Of a DNA stretch of 64,000 bases, positions 11,671 to 45,997 are shown in pieces (positions within the stretch are counted from its first letter, which is position 1; the number at the start of each line of letters is the position of its first letter). Both the position numbers and the translations under genes were made by a program. The notes under the pieces were generated by a model. It did no database searches. It was not told where the DNA came from and saw nothing but the letters and a program-made list of their open reading frames with translations. The stretch covers positions 186,001-250,000 of the forward strand of contig NZ_JAAAKZ010000006.1 in assembly GCF_009905605.1 (NCBI RefSeq), in the 5' to 3' direction. The DNA is from Runella sp. CRIBMP (GTDB taxonomy: Bacteria > Bacteroidota > Bacteroidia > Cytophagales > Spirosomataceae).

Positions 11671-12756
11671 ATGCCCGTAACGCTACCGATCTTCTTGATA
11701 ATGGCCCTTTCCTCCGTGGTGGTGGGGGTATATTTGGAACGTAAAGTCTCCGCTTTTATTCAGGACCGTATGGGACCGATGGAAGTAGGGAAATGGGGCT
11801 TGCTGCAACTCATCGCTGATTTGCTCAAACTTCTGCAAAAAGAAGACATCGTTCCCGCCACTGCCGACCGAAAGCTGTTTCTGTTGGCCCCGTTGGTGAT
11901 TTTTACGGCTATTTTTGCGGGTTATGCGGTGCTTCCATTAAGTCCTGATTTACAGGGTTCTACCACTTCGGTCGGGATATTTTATTTGATGACGATTATC
12001 TCCGTGGATGTAATTGGAATCTTGATGGCGGGCTGGGGTTCCAACAACAAATTTGCCCTTTTTGGGGCGGTTCGTTCCGTGGCTCAAATCATTTCGTATG
12101 AAATCCCGCTGGGGTTGGTCATACTGTGCGTAGTGATGACGGCCCAAACCCTTGATTTGCAGACCATAAGTTATCAACAAGGGATTTATTCTGACGAGAT
12201 AACGTACCTGTTTGGGTTAAAATCAATGGGCGTTGATATTACGCGGGTTGGCGGTTTTTTTAGTTGGAATATCGTCAGAAGTCCCTTTTTGATTGTCGCC
12301 TACATTGTGTTCTTTATCACTACATTGGCCGAATGTAACCGCGCCCCTTTTGACATCCCCGAAGGAGAGTCAGAACTCGTGGGAGGATTCCACACGGAGT
12401 ATTCGGGAATGCGGTGGGCGCTGCTGTTTTTGTCAGAATACGCCATGATGCTGTTGGTGTCGTTGTTGGGGGCCATTTTGTTTTTAGGAAGTTGGAATAC
12501 TCCATTGCCCAACATTGGCCCGCTGCGCCTTGCCGACTGGACAAGCGGCGCTCCTGGCACCATTTGGGGCAACGTAACGGGCGCTTTTTGGCTGATTTTT
12601 AAAGCAGGTTTTGCCATTCTGATTCAGATGTGGGTTCGTTGGACGTTCCCGCGTTTGCGCGTAGACCAGCTCATGTTTTTGTGTTGGAAAGTGCTTACTC
12701 CCGTGGCATTGATTCTGTTTCTTTTCTGCGGGATTTGGCGTTTGTTGATGGTATAA
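11671..12756 (+). CDS. nuoH: NADH-quinone oxidoreductase subunit H (NuoH)
   Basis: NuoH is the inner-membrane subunit that links the peripheral arm of complex I to the proton pumps and forms much of the quinone chamber. The 361 residues have about eight membrane spans and the hallmark segments YLERKVSAFIQDRMGPMEVG (near the N-terminus), LFGAVRSVAQIISYEIPLG, and NRAPFDIPEGESELVGGFHTEYSGMRW. The N-terminus before ERK is somewhat short compared with many NuoH, but the frame closes a few codons upstream. It sits alone: no other nuo gene lies within the window. Confidence 0.96.
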   Translation: MPVTLPIFLIMALSSVVVGVYLERKVSAFIQDRMGPMEVGKWGLLQLIADLLKLLQKEDIVPATADRKLFLLAPLVIFTAIFAGYAVLPLSPDLQGSTTSVGIFYLMTIISVDVIGILMAGWGSNNKFALFGAVRSVAQIISYEIPLGLVILCVVMTAQTLDLQTISYQQGIYSDEITYLFGLKSMGVDITRVGGFFSWNIVRSPFLIVAYIVFFITTLAECNRAPFDIPEGESELVGGFHTEYSGMRWALLFLSEYAMMLLVSLLGAILFLGSWNTPLPNIGPLRLADWTSGAPGTIWGNVTGAFWLIFKAGFAILIQMWVRWTFPRLRVDQLMFLCWKVLTPVALILFLFCGIWRLLMV

Positions 12757-12811
12757 ATTTTTTTTAAGAATATTTTCAGCCCAAAATAAAATAATTCAAT
12801 CCTCTTTTTCC

Positions 12812-12819
12812 TATTTTTG
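12812..12819 (+). promoter_or_regulatory. Promoter -7 box for the valS leader
   Basis: TATTTTTG matches TAnnTTTG. It is 18 nt before the ATG of the valine-rich leader ORF, leaving an A-rich leader of roughly 12 nt. A -33 TTG is not obvious. Confidence 0.5.
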
Positions 12820-12837
12820 CAAATAAACAAAATTACG

Positions 12838-12927
12838 ATGTACCTCACGCTGAGCAACATACCTGCCGTCAAAGTCACGAACGTTCGTGTGGTGGGCTGT
12901 GTCCGAGTCGGGAGCGTCGTATTTTAG
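12838..12927 (+). CDS. Valine-rich leader peptide upstream of valS
   Basis: A 29-codon ORF, MYLTLSNIPAVKV at its start and CVRVGSVVF at its end. Nine codons are valine (residues 11, 13, 16, 18, 19, 22, 24, 27, 28), using GTC, GTT, GTG and GTA, so half of the last 18 residues are Val. It follows a -7 box and precedes a terminator whose left arm can pair with codons 23-25 of this ORF. The next gene is valyl-tRNA synthetase. The composition and position fit a leader peptide that senses charged tRNA-Val by ribosome stalling. There is no database support here, and translation is not shown. Confidence 0.7.
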   Translation: MYLTLSNIPAVKVTNVRVVGCVRVGSVVF

Positions 12928-12985
12928 GTAGCTATTAACCCCTAAAAATATATCGCCCGACTCGTCTGAGTCGGGCTTTTTTTTT
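12904..12985 (+). promoter_or_regulatory. Predicted transcription attenuator of valS
   Basis: Terminator: GCCCGACTC (12955-12963) pairs with GAGTCGGGC (12968-12976) around a GTCT loop, followed by nine T (12977-12985). Alternative: CGAGTCGGG at 12904-12912, inside the leader ORF, is perfectly complementary over 9 bp to CCCGACTCG at 12956-12964 and would prevent the terminator. A ribosome reaching the stop at 12925-12927 would cover or approach the 12904-12912 arm and favour termination; a ribosome stalled at upstream Val codons would leave it free and favour read-through to valS. A palindrome CACGAACGTTCGTG (12876-12889) in the ORF may be an additional pause or competing structure. Confidence 0.65.
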
Positions 12986-13074
12986 AATGCAAATTATCAA
13001 ACAACTCAGAAACAATGAAAGTCTATTCCTCCGCATTCCAGGCCATTGTGTGACCGGGTTCACAGAGAATTCCC

Positions 13075-13082
13075 TATCTTTG
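13075..13082 (+). promoter_or_regulatory. Second promoter -7 box, proximal to valS
   Basis: TATCTTTG, an exact TAnnTTTG match 79 nt before the valS ATG and downstream of the attenuator. No -33 TTG lies at the usual spacing. If active, it would give attenuator-independent valS transcription. Confidence 0.45.
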
Positions 13083-13160
13083 CACACATTTTTTGACCGT
13101 AATAACGGATATTTTACCTAGTATATACCACCCGACATCCAAAGTCAATACAACTAAAAC

Positions 13161-15788
13161 ATGATTTCGAAGACCTACAATCCGCGTGAAATTGAAGACA
13201 AATGGTACAGTTATTGGATTGAAAACCGCTATTTCAATTCCAAGCCGAATCCTGACAAAGAGCCTTACACCATCGTCATTCCGCCGCCCAATGTGACGGG
13301 GGTGTTGCACATGGGCCACATGCTCAACAATACCATTCAGGATGTACTCGTCCGCAAGGCACGCATGGAAGGCAAAGAGGCATGTTGGGTGCCGGGCACC
13401 GACCACGCTTCGATTGCGACCGAAGCCAAAGTGGTGGCGATGCTCAAAGAACAAGGCATTCAGAAAAGTGACCTGACCCGCGAAGAATTCTATAAATATG
13501 CTTGGGAATGGACCGATAAATACGGCGGCATTATCTTGAAGCAATTGCGCAAATTGGGCGCCTCTTGCGATTGGGACCGCACGCGGTTTACCATGGAGCC
13601 GTCGCTTTATGATGCCGTGATTGACACTTTTATTGACCTGTACAACAAAGGCTACATTTATCGTGGTCATCGCATGGTCAATTGGGACCCACAGGCCAAA
13701 ACCACCGTCTCCGATGAGGAAGTCATCACCAAAGAGGTAATGACGAAACTGTGCTACCTGCGGTATCCCATCGTGGGAGAGAATGAGGACATTATCATTG
13801 CAACCGTTCGCCCCGAAACCATCATGGCCGACTCCGCCATTTGTGTGCACCCTGACGACGAGCGTTTTAAGCATTTACACGGTAAAAAAGCGCTTATTCC
13901 GCTCATTAACCGCGAGATTCCGATTATCACGGATGAATACGTGACGATGGATTTTGGAACGGGAGCCTTGAAAGTGACGCCTGCGCACGACCAAAATGAC
14001 TATGATTTGGGCGTAAAACACAAGCTCGAAATCATCGATATTTTGACCGAGGAAGGAAAACTCAACGAGAAAGCGCTGATTTTGGTGGGTGAAGACCGTT
14101 TTGTAGCCCGTAAAAAAATCATCAAACTGCTTGAAGAGTCGGGGAACTTGGAGAAAATAGAAGACTACAAGAGCAACGTCGGTCACTCTGAGCGCACAAA
14201 CGCCGTCATTGAGCCACGCTTGTCGTTGCAGTGGTTTGTCCGGATGAAGGAGCTGTGTCAACCCGCGCTCGAAAACGTGATGAATGACAATATTCAGCTG
14301 CATCCGCCTAAGTTTAAAAATACCTATCGAATCTGGATTGAAAATATTCGCGATTGGAACATCAGCCGGCAGTTGTGGTGGGGGCAGCAGATTCCTGCCT
14401 ATTATTTGTCGGACGGCACCGTGATTGTGGCCAAAAACAAACGAGAAGCCCTTCGCAAAGCCCAGCACGAAATGCAGTTGTTTGCCCTGACCGAAGCCGA
14501 CCTGACCCAAGACCCCGACGTGGTGGATACGTGGTTTAGCTCGTGGCTCTGGCCTATTTCGGTTTTTGACGGTATCAAAGATACTAACAACGAGGACATC
14601 AACTATTATTATCCTACCAATGACCTCGTTACAGCGCCTGAGATTCTGTTTTTCTGGGTCATGCGGATGATTATTGCGGGTTATGAGTTTAGAGGCGAAT
14701 TGCCTTTCCGGAATGTCTACTTGACGGGAATTGTGCGTGACCCTAAAGGACGTAAAATGTCAAAATCGTTGGGGAATTCTCCTGAACCGTTGGCATTGAT
14801 TGAACAATATGGTGCCGACGGGGTACGCACGGGAATGCTGTTCAGCTCGCCCGCAGGCAATGATTTACTGTTTGACGAAAAGCTCTGTGAGCAGGGGCGC
14901 AACTTCTGTAATAAGATTTGGAACGCATTTCGTCTGGTTAAAGGATGGGAAGTGTACAGCCCACAGTCTCCAGTTTTCAGTGCACAGTTGGCGGTCAATT
15001 GGTTTGAGTCAAAACTCAACCAAACAGTCACGGAAGTCCTTGACCTATTCTCAAAATACCGTATTTCTGACGCTCTAAATGCGGTATACAAATTGATTTG
15101 GGATGATTTCTGCTCGCAGTATTTGGAGATGATTAAACCCGAATACGGCCAACCCATTGACAAAGATACTTTCGAGGCAACCATTGACTTTTTTGAGCGC
15201 ATCATGGCGCTGACACATCCTTTCATGCCGTTTATCACCGAAGAAATTTGGCAGGATATTCGTCCAAGAGGGGAGAAAGAAAGTCTTTGTGTGGCTGAAT
15301 ACCCAACGATTGGAGCAATTGATACGGCGCTTTTGGCTAACGTTGAGATTTTCTTTGAGATTGTGACCAACATCCGTAACCTGCGGAGTACCAAGAATAT
15401 AAGCCCTAAAACGGCATTGCCTTTGACAATAAAGACCGAAAATCAAGGTCTATACCAGCCTTTTGAAGGGTTGTTGGTAAAACTGGCCAACATTTCAGAA
15501 ATCAACTACGCGACCGACCAAGCTGATGGGATGTCGTTTTTGGTGAAAGCCGATGAGTTTTTTGTGAATCTCGCGGGAGAACTTGACGTAGCTGCCGAAA
15601 TCGAAAACCTCCAAAAGGAATTGGAATACAGCTTAGGCTTCAAAAAATCGGTAGAAGCAAAGCTGTCTAACGAACGTTTCGTCCAAAACGCCAAAGCGGA
15701 TGTGGTCGAAAAAGAACGCCAAAAACTCGCCGATGCCGAAGCTAAAATTGTCGCGATTCAGGAATCGTTGACGCGCCTGAAAGCTTAG
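13161..15788 (+). CDS. valS: Valyl-tRNA synthetase
   Basis: Charges tRNA-Val; class I synthetase. The 875 residues show PPPNVTGVLHMGHM with the HIGH motif as HMGH (50-53), the CP1 editing domain (VRPETIMADSAICVHPDD and DFGTGALKVTPAHDQNDYDLG), NISRQLWWGQQIPAYY, and GRKMSKSLGNS with KMSKS at 532-536. The anticodon-binding region follows, and a C-terminal coiled coil (from about 800, EIENLQKELEYSLGFKKSVE) binds tRNA. Complete and of normal length. Regulation by the upstream valine-rich leader is predicted. It ends at a convergent hairpin. Confidence 0.98.
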   Translation: MISKTYNPREIEDKWYSYWIENRYFNSKPNPDKEPYTIVIPPPNVTGVLHMGHMLNNTIQDVLVRKARMEGKEACWVPGTDHASIATEAKVVAMLKEQGIQKSDLTREEFYKYAWEWTDKYGGIILKQLRKLGASCDWDRTRFTMEPSLYDAVIDTFIDLYNKGYIYRGHRMVNWDPQAKTTVSDEEVITKEVMTKLCYLRYPIVGENEDIIIATVRPETIMADSAICVHPDDERFKHLHGKKALIPLINREIPIITDEYVTMDFGTGALKVTPAHDQNDYDLGVKHKLEIIDILTEEGKLNEKALILVGEDRFVARKKIIKLLEESGNLEKIEDYKSNVGHSERTNAVIEPRLSLQWFVRMKELCQPALENVMNDNIQLHPPKFKNTYRIWIENIRDWNISRQLWWGQQIPAYYLSDGTVIVAKNKREALRKAQHEMQLFALTEADLTQDPDVVDTWFSSWLWPISVFDGIKDTNNEDINYYYPTNDLVTAPEILFFWVMRMIIAGYEFRGELPFRNVYLTGIVRDPKGRKMSKSLGNSPEPLALIEQYGADGVRTGMLFSSPAGNDLLFDEKLCEQGRNFCNKIWNAFRLVKGWEVYSPQSPVFSAQLAVNWFESKLNQTVTEVLDLFSKYRISDALNAVYKLIWDDFCSQYLEMIKPEYGQPIDKDTFEATIDFFERIMALTHPFMPFITEEIWQDIRPRGEKESLCVAEYPTIGAIDTALLANVEIFFEIVTNIRNLRSTKNISPKTALPLTIKTENQGLYQPFEGLLVKLANISEINYATDQADGMSFLVKADEFFVNLAGELDVAAEIENLQKELEYSLGFKKSVEAKLSNERFVQNAKADVVEKERQKLADAEAKIVAIQESLTRLKA

Positions 15789-45590: not shown

Positions 45591-45961
45591 GGGGCCGCCA
45601 TGGTTTTGACAGCGAGTTGAGGCAATACGTATAAGCACGTCGGGACGTGTGCGCGAGTCCTGTTAAAAACACGCATAAACAATAGCTGGCGAATATAGCT
45701 ACGCTATGGCTGCCTAATCCGGAGTGATTAAGCTTTAGCCATCGTTCCTCCAACCTCCGCCTTGCGGGTTGGGTCAAGGAGCGTCGAAACGTGAGGCTGG
45801 TCGGGTTGATGGTGTTGATACCCGGCGAGACACAACACCTAAGGTGCAGGATGAGGTCTGATTTGAACCTTGCCGGCACTCGAAAATTCAATCAAATCTA
45901 AGCGTGTAGAAGGCGTACGGTTTCCTTGTTCTGGACGTGGGTTCGACTCCCACCGGCTCCA
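45591..45961 (+). ncRNA. ssrA: Transfer-messenger RNA
   Basis: Rescues stalled ribosomes and tags the peptide. The 5' GGGGCCG pairs with the 3' CGGCTCC as an acceptor stem, with the G3-U wobble needed for alanine charging, and the T-arm reads GGGTTCGACTCCC before it; the discriminator A follows and CCA is not encoded. The tag frame reads GGC GAA TAT AGC TAC GCT ATG GCT GCC TAA after the CAATAGCT resume region, giving the tag GEYSYAMAA. It is one piece, not permuted. Length is about 371 nt. Followed by a very strong terminator. Confidence 0.95.
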
Positions 45962-45962
45962 C

Positions 45963-45997
45963 AAAAGCCGCCAAATCGAAAGATTTGGCGGCTTTTT
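45963..45997 (+). terminator. Terminator of tmRNA
   Basis: A perfect 15-bp stem (AAAAGCCGCCAAATC with GATTTGGCGGCTTTT) closed by a GAAA tetraloop, with T5 at its end. It starts two bases after the mature 3' end. Confidence 0.92.

Follow-up and report, generated by a model that had tools for sequence, protein, structure and literature searches.

Upstream of valS in Runella sp. CRIBMP lies a short leader that is probably an orphaned copy of a leader-peptide attenuator, one that normally heads RNA-repair operons and that, as we propose, works by responding to failed translation. The window, by which we mean the whole 64,000-nucleotide stretch of DNA analysed, holds this leader between nuoH and valS. 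The case for an orphaned leader is built on homology, gene order, the absence of matches to the operon, conservation, anatomy and predicted folding; what we infer from these is that the ORF is translated and that the terminator is read through on an inducing signal, as well as any effect on valS. The attenuator family that heads the RNA-repair operons is apparently widespread and undescribed.

Results

Anatomy of the leader

A sequence-only reading of this stretch had described a 29-codon ORF with nine valine codons between a TAnnTTTG box and a perfect terminator (a nine-base-pair stem and nine U), then valS, with a second TAnnTTTG box after the terminator. Our coordinates agree with each of these elements (Table 1). 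That reading had also paired positions 12904-12912 with 12956-12964, taken as the left arm of the terminator; the complementarity stands, and the arm itself begins one base earlier, at 12955. The TAnnTTTG motif, which we take to be the Bacteroidota promoter box, reads TA(C/T)TTTTG before the leader in all seven nuoH-linked homologues and TAATTTTG in the remaining three.

Table 1 Features of the leader region, in window coordinates
Feature	Position	Strand	Evidence or remark
nuoH (NADH dehydrogenase subunit)	11671..12756	+	Gene 5' of the leader, outside the switch; ORF; orthologue matches Pfam NADHdh
TAnnTTTG -7-like box TATTTTTG, putative leader promoter	12812..12819	+	Sequence motif
Leader ORF, ATG..TAG, 29 codons, 9 Val	12838..12927	+	ORF list; open in 10/10 Runella homologues
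Small intra-ORF hairpin CACGA/TCGTG	12876..12889	+	3/5 pairs changed on both sides (compensated); 98% of cells paired
Predicted antiterminator strand, pairs with 12956-12964	12904..12912	+	Perfect complement; 6-bp core kept in 10/10 Runella homologues; folding
Predicted stop-codon hairpin, 12922-12928 with 12941-12947	12922..12947	+	Folds; 84% of cells paired in Runella
Terminator: stem 12955-12976 (9 bp, 4-nt loop), U tract 12977-12985 (nine U)	12955..12985	+	All stem cells paired across 10 homologues
Junction zone: ~3.2 kb with PcfJ-like gene and rtcB in G003, none in the window genome	13039..13070	.	blastn
TAnnTTTG box TATCTTTG, putative proximal valS promoter	13075..13082	+	Kept also where the leader is not nearby; 0/18 differences within the window's species group
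valS, 875 aa ORF, now 3' of the leader	13161..15788	+	ORF; matches in 38/39 relatives searched

The valines stand at leader codons 11, 13, 16, 18, 19, 22, 24, 27 and 28, and none of 7,966 Runella protein windows of 29 residues reaches nine. The start ATG and the sequence TTTTAG are invariant in all ten Runella homologues, among which every indel in the ORF is of 3 nt. The fold of the whole leader beats those of its shuffles (z -2.6; 0 of 200 as good), and an anatomical scan of both strands found the full leader anatomy at this single site in the 64-kb window. When Rfam 15 was run over the window, the tmRNA (45591-45964) was the only match at gathering score, with no T-box and no catalogued leader RNA. 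Within 12740-13160 there were 16 sub-threshold matches, none of them a T-box, and these seem to rest mainly on the terminator.

Leader homologues and gene order in Runella

A covariance model built on ten Runella leaders, the window's sequence included, found leader homologues in 10 of 13 Runella genomes. DNA matches, the covariance model and alignment all relate the window's leader to the leaders of rtcB clusters. The order nuoH-leader-valS occurs in the window genome, G012, G010 and G002. Another arrangement is found in G003, G006 (Runella sp. MFBS21) and G009 (R. zeae; Runella zeae): here nuoH and the leader are followed by a PcfJ-like gene, an RNA ligase gene (in G006 and G009) and rtcB, and valS comes at a distance. 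The leader of G001, G004 and G011 sits at another site, directly before rtcB. An assignment of this last gene as HMG-CoA reductase was ruled out by Pfam, which identifies it as RtcB.

RtcB is present in exactly six Runella genomes, and in each of them a leader stands at the head of the cluster on the same strand; three of the six also carry the PcfJ-like gene. The Pfam assignments of PcfJ, RNA_ligase and RtcB were made on representatives. No tRNA genes were found in the Runella operons (L158, L159), and G005, G007 and G008 gave neither a leader nor an RtcB match.

By blastn, window positions 12700-13039 and 13070-13200 match stretches of G003 that lie 3.2 kb apart. The window genome gave no RtcB, PcfJ-like or TROVE match, and neither RtcB nor PcfJ was found in its four-species group, which has the leader (the G002 genome is only 83% complete). 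In this group the RNA-repair operon is absent between leader and valS.

The wider family

The covariance model R1, run over 222 genomes of the family, gave a match in 45, and leaders were traced through it in Emticicia and in one further genus of that family. Besides the ten Runella and the eight Emticicia-type leaders, its weak matches, not all of which were read, include many plain terminators or other attenuators. Among side matches of the leader model, L081 and L088 have a His-rich leader before his genes, and L082 and L087 have Tyr-rich leaders before an aminotransferase-like gene; these look like ordinary attenuators.

All eight Emticicia-type genomes that were read carry leaders in tandem, the first of 30-31 codons and the second of 54-55, each with its own terminator. 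Behind them lie, with varying completeness, a PcfJ-like gene, an RNA ligase gene, tRNA genes, TROVE/Ro60, a slipin-like Band_7 gene and rtcB, the Pfam assignments for the cluster genes being taken from representatives. The tRNA genes sit between the PcfJ-like gene and slipin/rtcB and cover many amino acids; 7, 11, 13 and 15 were detected in four named Emticicia loci (L160, L161, L162 and L163, respectively). The array is perhaps an inducible spare tRNA set. In G139 and G145, the leaders are followed by a tRNA gene, a slipin-like gene and rtcB, with no PcfJ-like match, and in G156, from the further genus, leader and rtcB lie on separate contigs. Sub-threshold matches to YrlA (Y RNA-like) occur inside two Emticicia clusters (L097 3004-3101; L100 1796-1887, minus strand). 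The Emticicia aquatilis cluster (L160) also contains an RNase_T-type exonuclease gene (14680-15255) and encodes a 746-aa protein without a confident Pfam family (12412-14649).

Over 390 genomes of the order, R2 gave matches in four: two known Emticicia, one that resembles a plain terminator, and a new clear leader in G316. The last, found by the leader-1 model in a member of another family, has 36 codons with 19 amino acids and stands before a TROVE gene. R3, over 395 genomes of the class, gave low-scoring matches in 22. The window genome itself has a weak match to the second-leader model on contig C1 (L180; E 9e-4).

Of 390 genomes searched for TROVE, 92 were positive. In 91 of these we scanned the stretches upstream of the gene, at 95 loci and over 439 kb; the genome left out, G141, was read separately. 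Leader anatomy was found on the operon strand at 31 of the 95 TROVE (Ro60) loci, a count that comes in large part from one genus, so the cases are not independent; the opposite strand shows it at 1 of 95. Restricted to the first 60 loci, the scan yielded 12 vs 0 and 13 vs 0, operon against opposite strand, at two settings. The remaining 64 of 95 loci gave no leader match. Because the scan required an ORF, the leader ORFs that it returned are no independent proof; leaders with a GTG or TTG start were outside its scope, and one doubtful leader of 17 codons (L253) is counted in the anatomical and TROVE scans. At least five tRNA genes lie on the TROVE strand in 3 of the 31 leader-bearing loci, and two or more TROVE loci with tRNA arrays gave no leader match. 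Four loci (L244, L273, L309 and L310) have 3-9 tRNA genes on the TROVE strand and no leader that we found. Several other genera have a WYL/WCX-domain regulator, instead of a leader, near rtcB and a slipin-like gene; the example in L142 (9332-10351, minus strand) was assigned by Pfam, and similar proteins occur in other loci.

The leader before valS

Thirty correctly oriented valS loci were retrieved from 38 matching genomes of the order, one of them with only 423 nt upstream. Leader and terminator precede valS in three of the 30, all in the window's species group; the fourth species with the order nuoH-leader-valS, G002, was seen at a separate locus outside the 30. A Val-specific valS attenuator as an order-wide feature is ruled out by the 27 of 30 loci without a leader. 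A TAnnTTTG box lies within 300 nt before valS in 24 of the 30, including G003, G006 and G009, and in these three genomes, where the leader does not adjoin valS, the stretch with the proximal valS box precedes valS as well.

These comparisons divide the earlier proposal of a ribosome-mediated valS attenuator. Its attenuator build holds, and in four species the leader is conserved above neutral expectation; a Val-rich leader before valS is also found in close relatives, but only inside the window's species group, so that this check speaks for the proposal within the group and against it outside. As an account of origin the proposal is not supported: the same element heads an RNA-repair operon in six Runella genomes. 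The match between Val codons and the downstream gene, on which the proposal leaned, holds in the window, with nine Val codons and valS, but not in five evaluated relatives, in which an RNA-repair gene follows leaders with 4 (G003), 2 (G006), 2 (G009), 4 (G004) or 5 (G011) Val codons.

Predicted working of the switch

In our folding calculations, a ribosome blocked the RNA up to 12 nt past the A-site codon, and pairing of the terminator's left arm with upstream sequence was scored before the right arm exists. For the window's leader, the predicted probability that the left arm is sequestered is 0.99 with no ribosome or with a stall at or before codon 17, falling to 0.77 at codon 19, 0.22 at codon 21 and 0.02 at the stop. 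Early stalls give values of 0.75-0.99 in all ten Runella leaders and 0.58-0.98 in all eight first leaders of the tandems; at the stop, the value is at most 0.13 in all of these 10 and 8, with some rebound at intermediate codons. Among the second leaders, the three of eight that were evaluated (the terminator finder missed the terminator in five) give 0.86 early and 0.28-0.40 at the stop, which suggests a leaky off state. Nine further leaders, from ten, give 0.68-0.90 early and 0.00-0.33 at the stop. With no ribosome, readthrough is predicted in most leaders (0.51-0.99), which makes it look like the default state, one that a passing ribosome would close; the antiterminator is predicted to exclude the terminator and to be masked by a ribosome near the stop codon.

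Dinucleotide shuffles seldom reach the early value in the window's group (0-1 of 150; 1 of 150 for the window with a mid-ORF stall), and the value also stands out in G135, G141, G142 and the second leaders. Elsewhere in Runella, 4-20 of 150 shuffles reach it, and the signal is weak in G006, G156 and G011; in G138, G143 and G145 the early value is no better than in shuffles (48-64 of 150). The antiterminator helix varies little within Runella and shows little covariation, with 114 of 500 shuffles as good.

A valine-specific function may have arisen in the present group. After loss of the operon, the leader could have been re-tuned to valine so as to control valS through charged tRNA-Val, on top of the proximal promoter. 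This would be compatible with an orphan origin, and we consider it unlikely. It draws on the excess of valine over the relatives (9 of 29 codons vs 2-5), and, at the 12 codons where the window and G003 differ, five are Val only in the window (binomial P 0.0007 at 6.7% Val, a post hoc test). Five of the Val codons, moreover, fall within the predicted stall-sensitive part, codons 11-19, the leader has remained conserved after loss of the operon, and the stretch from leader to valS showed no second terminator. What tells against it is that the proximal valS promoter box is fully conserved and that a stall at any early codon, not at Val alone, is predicted to trip the switch. The Val codons also lie in paired segments, where structure may dictate GT-rich codons; the Val-rich leaders all belong to one clade and amount to one event, and at least one of the five Val positions, 16, is Val in G004 and G011 too and hence perhaps ancestral.

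Composition of the leader peptides

The test ORFs of the family have 25-55 codons. Twenty-two leaders, hand-picked at one per lineage, with L253 and the leaders first found in the 95-locus TROVE scan left out, use a wider variety of amino acids than do length-matched protein windows (Stouffer P 9e-10) or short ORFs (4e-10), with kinship ignored. Compared singly with protein windows, 7 of the 22 have P < 0.05. No unusual richness in different amino acids is seen in the four Runella leader types, the window's among them, and six of the eight second leaders contain all 20.

Substitutions in the ORF show no codon-position bias (32/24/36), so the peptide sequence is not conserved, and for want of a third-position excess the substitution pattern leaves translation of the leader ORFs unproven. 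What is kept across leaders is the start, the stop, the length, the distance from stop to terminator (23-37 nt) and the pairing. The pairing sequences themselves differ by lineage, for example GAGTCG in Runella, and GGTTCGG or GTTCGGGT in other families. This pattern fits a leader that would serve as a meter of ribosome passage, with no functional peptide.

The leader might instead sense one specific signal, for example through an arrest peptide, or an antibiotic or cysteine, rather than general translation failure. In its favour, cysteine makes up 4.0% of leader residues vs 0.9% in long ORFs, and all Runella leaders end in VF-stop. We judge a specific signal improbable: the peptides are almost wholly different between lineages, the codon positions are unbiased, and for stalls anywhere in at least the first half of the ORF much the same response is predicted.

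Conservation where the operon is missing

Within the window's group (the window, G012, G002 and G010), differences affect 2-7 of the 90 ORF sites and 1-3 of the 58 sites from stop to terminator, whereas divergence is 13-24% at four-fold sites of nuoH and valS and 5-29% in the spacer 3' of the terminator. Promoter box, start, stop and terminator are intact in all four species. The low divergence relative to four-fold sites therefore indicates continuing selection on the orphan leader, and likewise on the 5' region of valS. It is decidedly improbable, given these differences, that the leader is a functionless relic decaying in this group. A relic would agree with the fact that the operon which the leader heads elsewhere was not found in the group, and the conservation is to be read with the caveat that the spacer (4 of 83 differences between the window and G012) and the valS 5' UTR (1-10 of 74 within the group) are fairly conserved as well.

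A free-standing, trans-acting small RNA of ~160 nt ending at the terminator, to which the leader's own promoter and terminator, strong fold and changing neighbours within Runella would correspond, is very improbable, because wherever RtcB is present in Runella the RNA lies on the same strand just upstream, because ORF start, stop, length and antiterminator pairing are kept, because tandem copies head the Emticicia operons, and because no Rfam family is found for the leader at gathering score.

Discussion

As we envisage the attenuator that was orphaned before valS, RNA polymerase would transcribe a short test ORF, and a ribosome passing through it would cover the antiterminator strand near its 3' end, letting the terminator form and keeping the operon off. 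With a stall before about two thirds of the ORF, or with no ribosome at all, the antiterminator would pair with the left arm of the terminator and readthrough would follow. Its products would be RNA ligases, the Ro60-type protein and, in some genera, a spare set of tRNAs. The usual test ORF draws on so many different codons that the switch should respond to the loss of almost any tRNA. In the window's group, the operon would have been lost, leaving a constrained, Val-rich leader before valS, where readthrough would add to the output of valS's own promoter. The combined proposal, that a family of all-codon leaders monitors completion of a test ORF and switches on RNA repair (with spare tRNAs in some genera), and that in the window's Runella group such a leader, its operon lost, is in the course of re-tuning to valine before valS, is one that we put forward tentatively and rate at a little under an even chance.

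A leader that tests translation itself could do without a dedicated sensor protein. Where tRNA arrays follow a leader, they suggest an alarm response, in which broken tRNAs are repaired and new ones supplied. With a reporter of ~160 nt, the question of what induces RNA repair becomes testable. The leader in the window also offers a case of a regulatory RNA outliving its operon; its capture by valS, to judge from sequence, is possible.

The leaders share their logic with attenuators of the trpL and hisL type, in which a short ORF is followed by mutually exclusive antiterminator and terminator and the position of the ribosome decides between them. They differ in that the leaders here usually mix many amino acids and, with no ribosome, have predicted readthrough as their default. 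The genes behind them also differ, being for RNA repair and tRNAs here and for amino-acid synthesis there.

Our literature search covered open-licence PMC articles and is thus weak evidence of absence; within it, no leader peptide was described for valS, and armZ was the one case of a leader attenuator among rtcB, RNA-ligase and TROVE operons. For Bacteroidota, passages of one article treat leader-peptide attenuation before amino-acid operons, along with aminoacyl-tRNA synthetases that have structured 5' regions (PMC9723704), and a passage of another mentions possible leader ORFs (PMC7366714). As far as the passages cited here extend, published control of RNA repair consists of proteins (RtcR and TrcR) and one leader-peptide case, that of armZ with its RtcB-like protein.

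In Salmonella, according to PMC7790460, the RtcR-controlled rtc operon switches on RNA repair upon tRNA damage, and the sensor is a CARF-domain protein. An RNA-repair operon is common to both systems, with a protein sensor there and a leader here; a term search of the text of that article found neither "leader" nor "attenuat" (PMC7790460). In Anabaena, the repressor TrcR acts on the trn operon, and translational stress turns on a tRNA array and rtcB, as passages of PMC10272220 describe. A tRNA array and rtcB are thus shared with the clusters described here, whereas control there is by a repressor protein, array and rtcB are separate loci, and the organism is a cyanobacterium (PMC10272220). Among the articles cited here, the nearest described case comes from Pseudomonas aeruginosa, where armZ has the leader PA5471.1, for which passages of PMC12057347 propose attenuation of an RtcB-like protein by a stalled ribosome. 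Both systems place a leader peptide gene before an RtcB-like gene; ArmZ, however, is an anti-repressor of an efflux pump in an unrelated bacterium, and the two are likened by description, not by homology of their leaders (PMC12057347).
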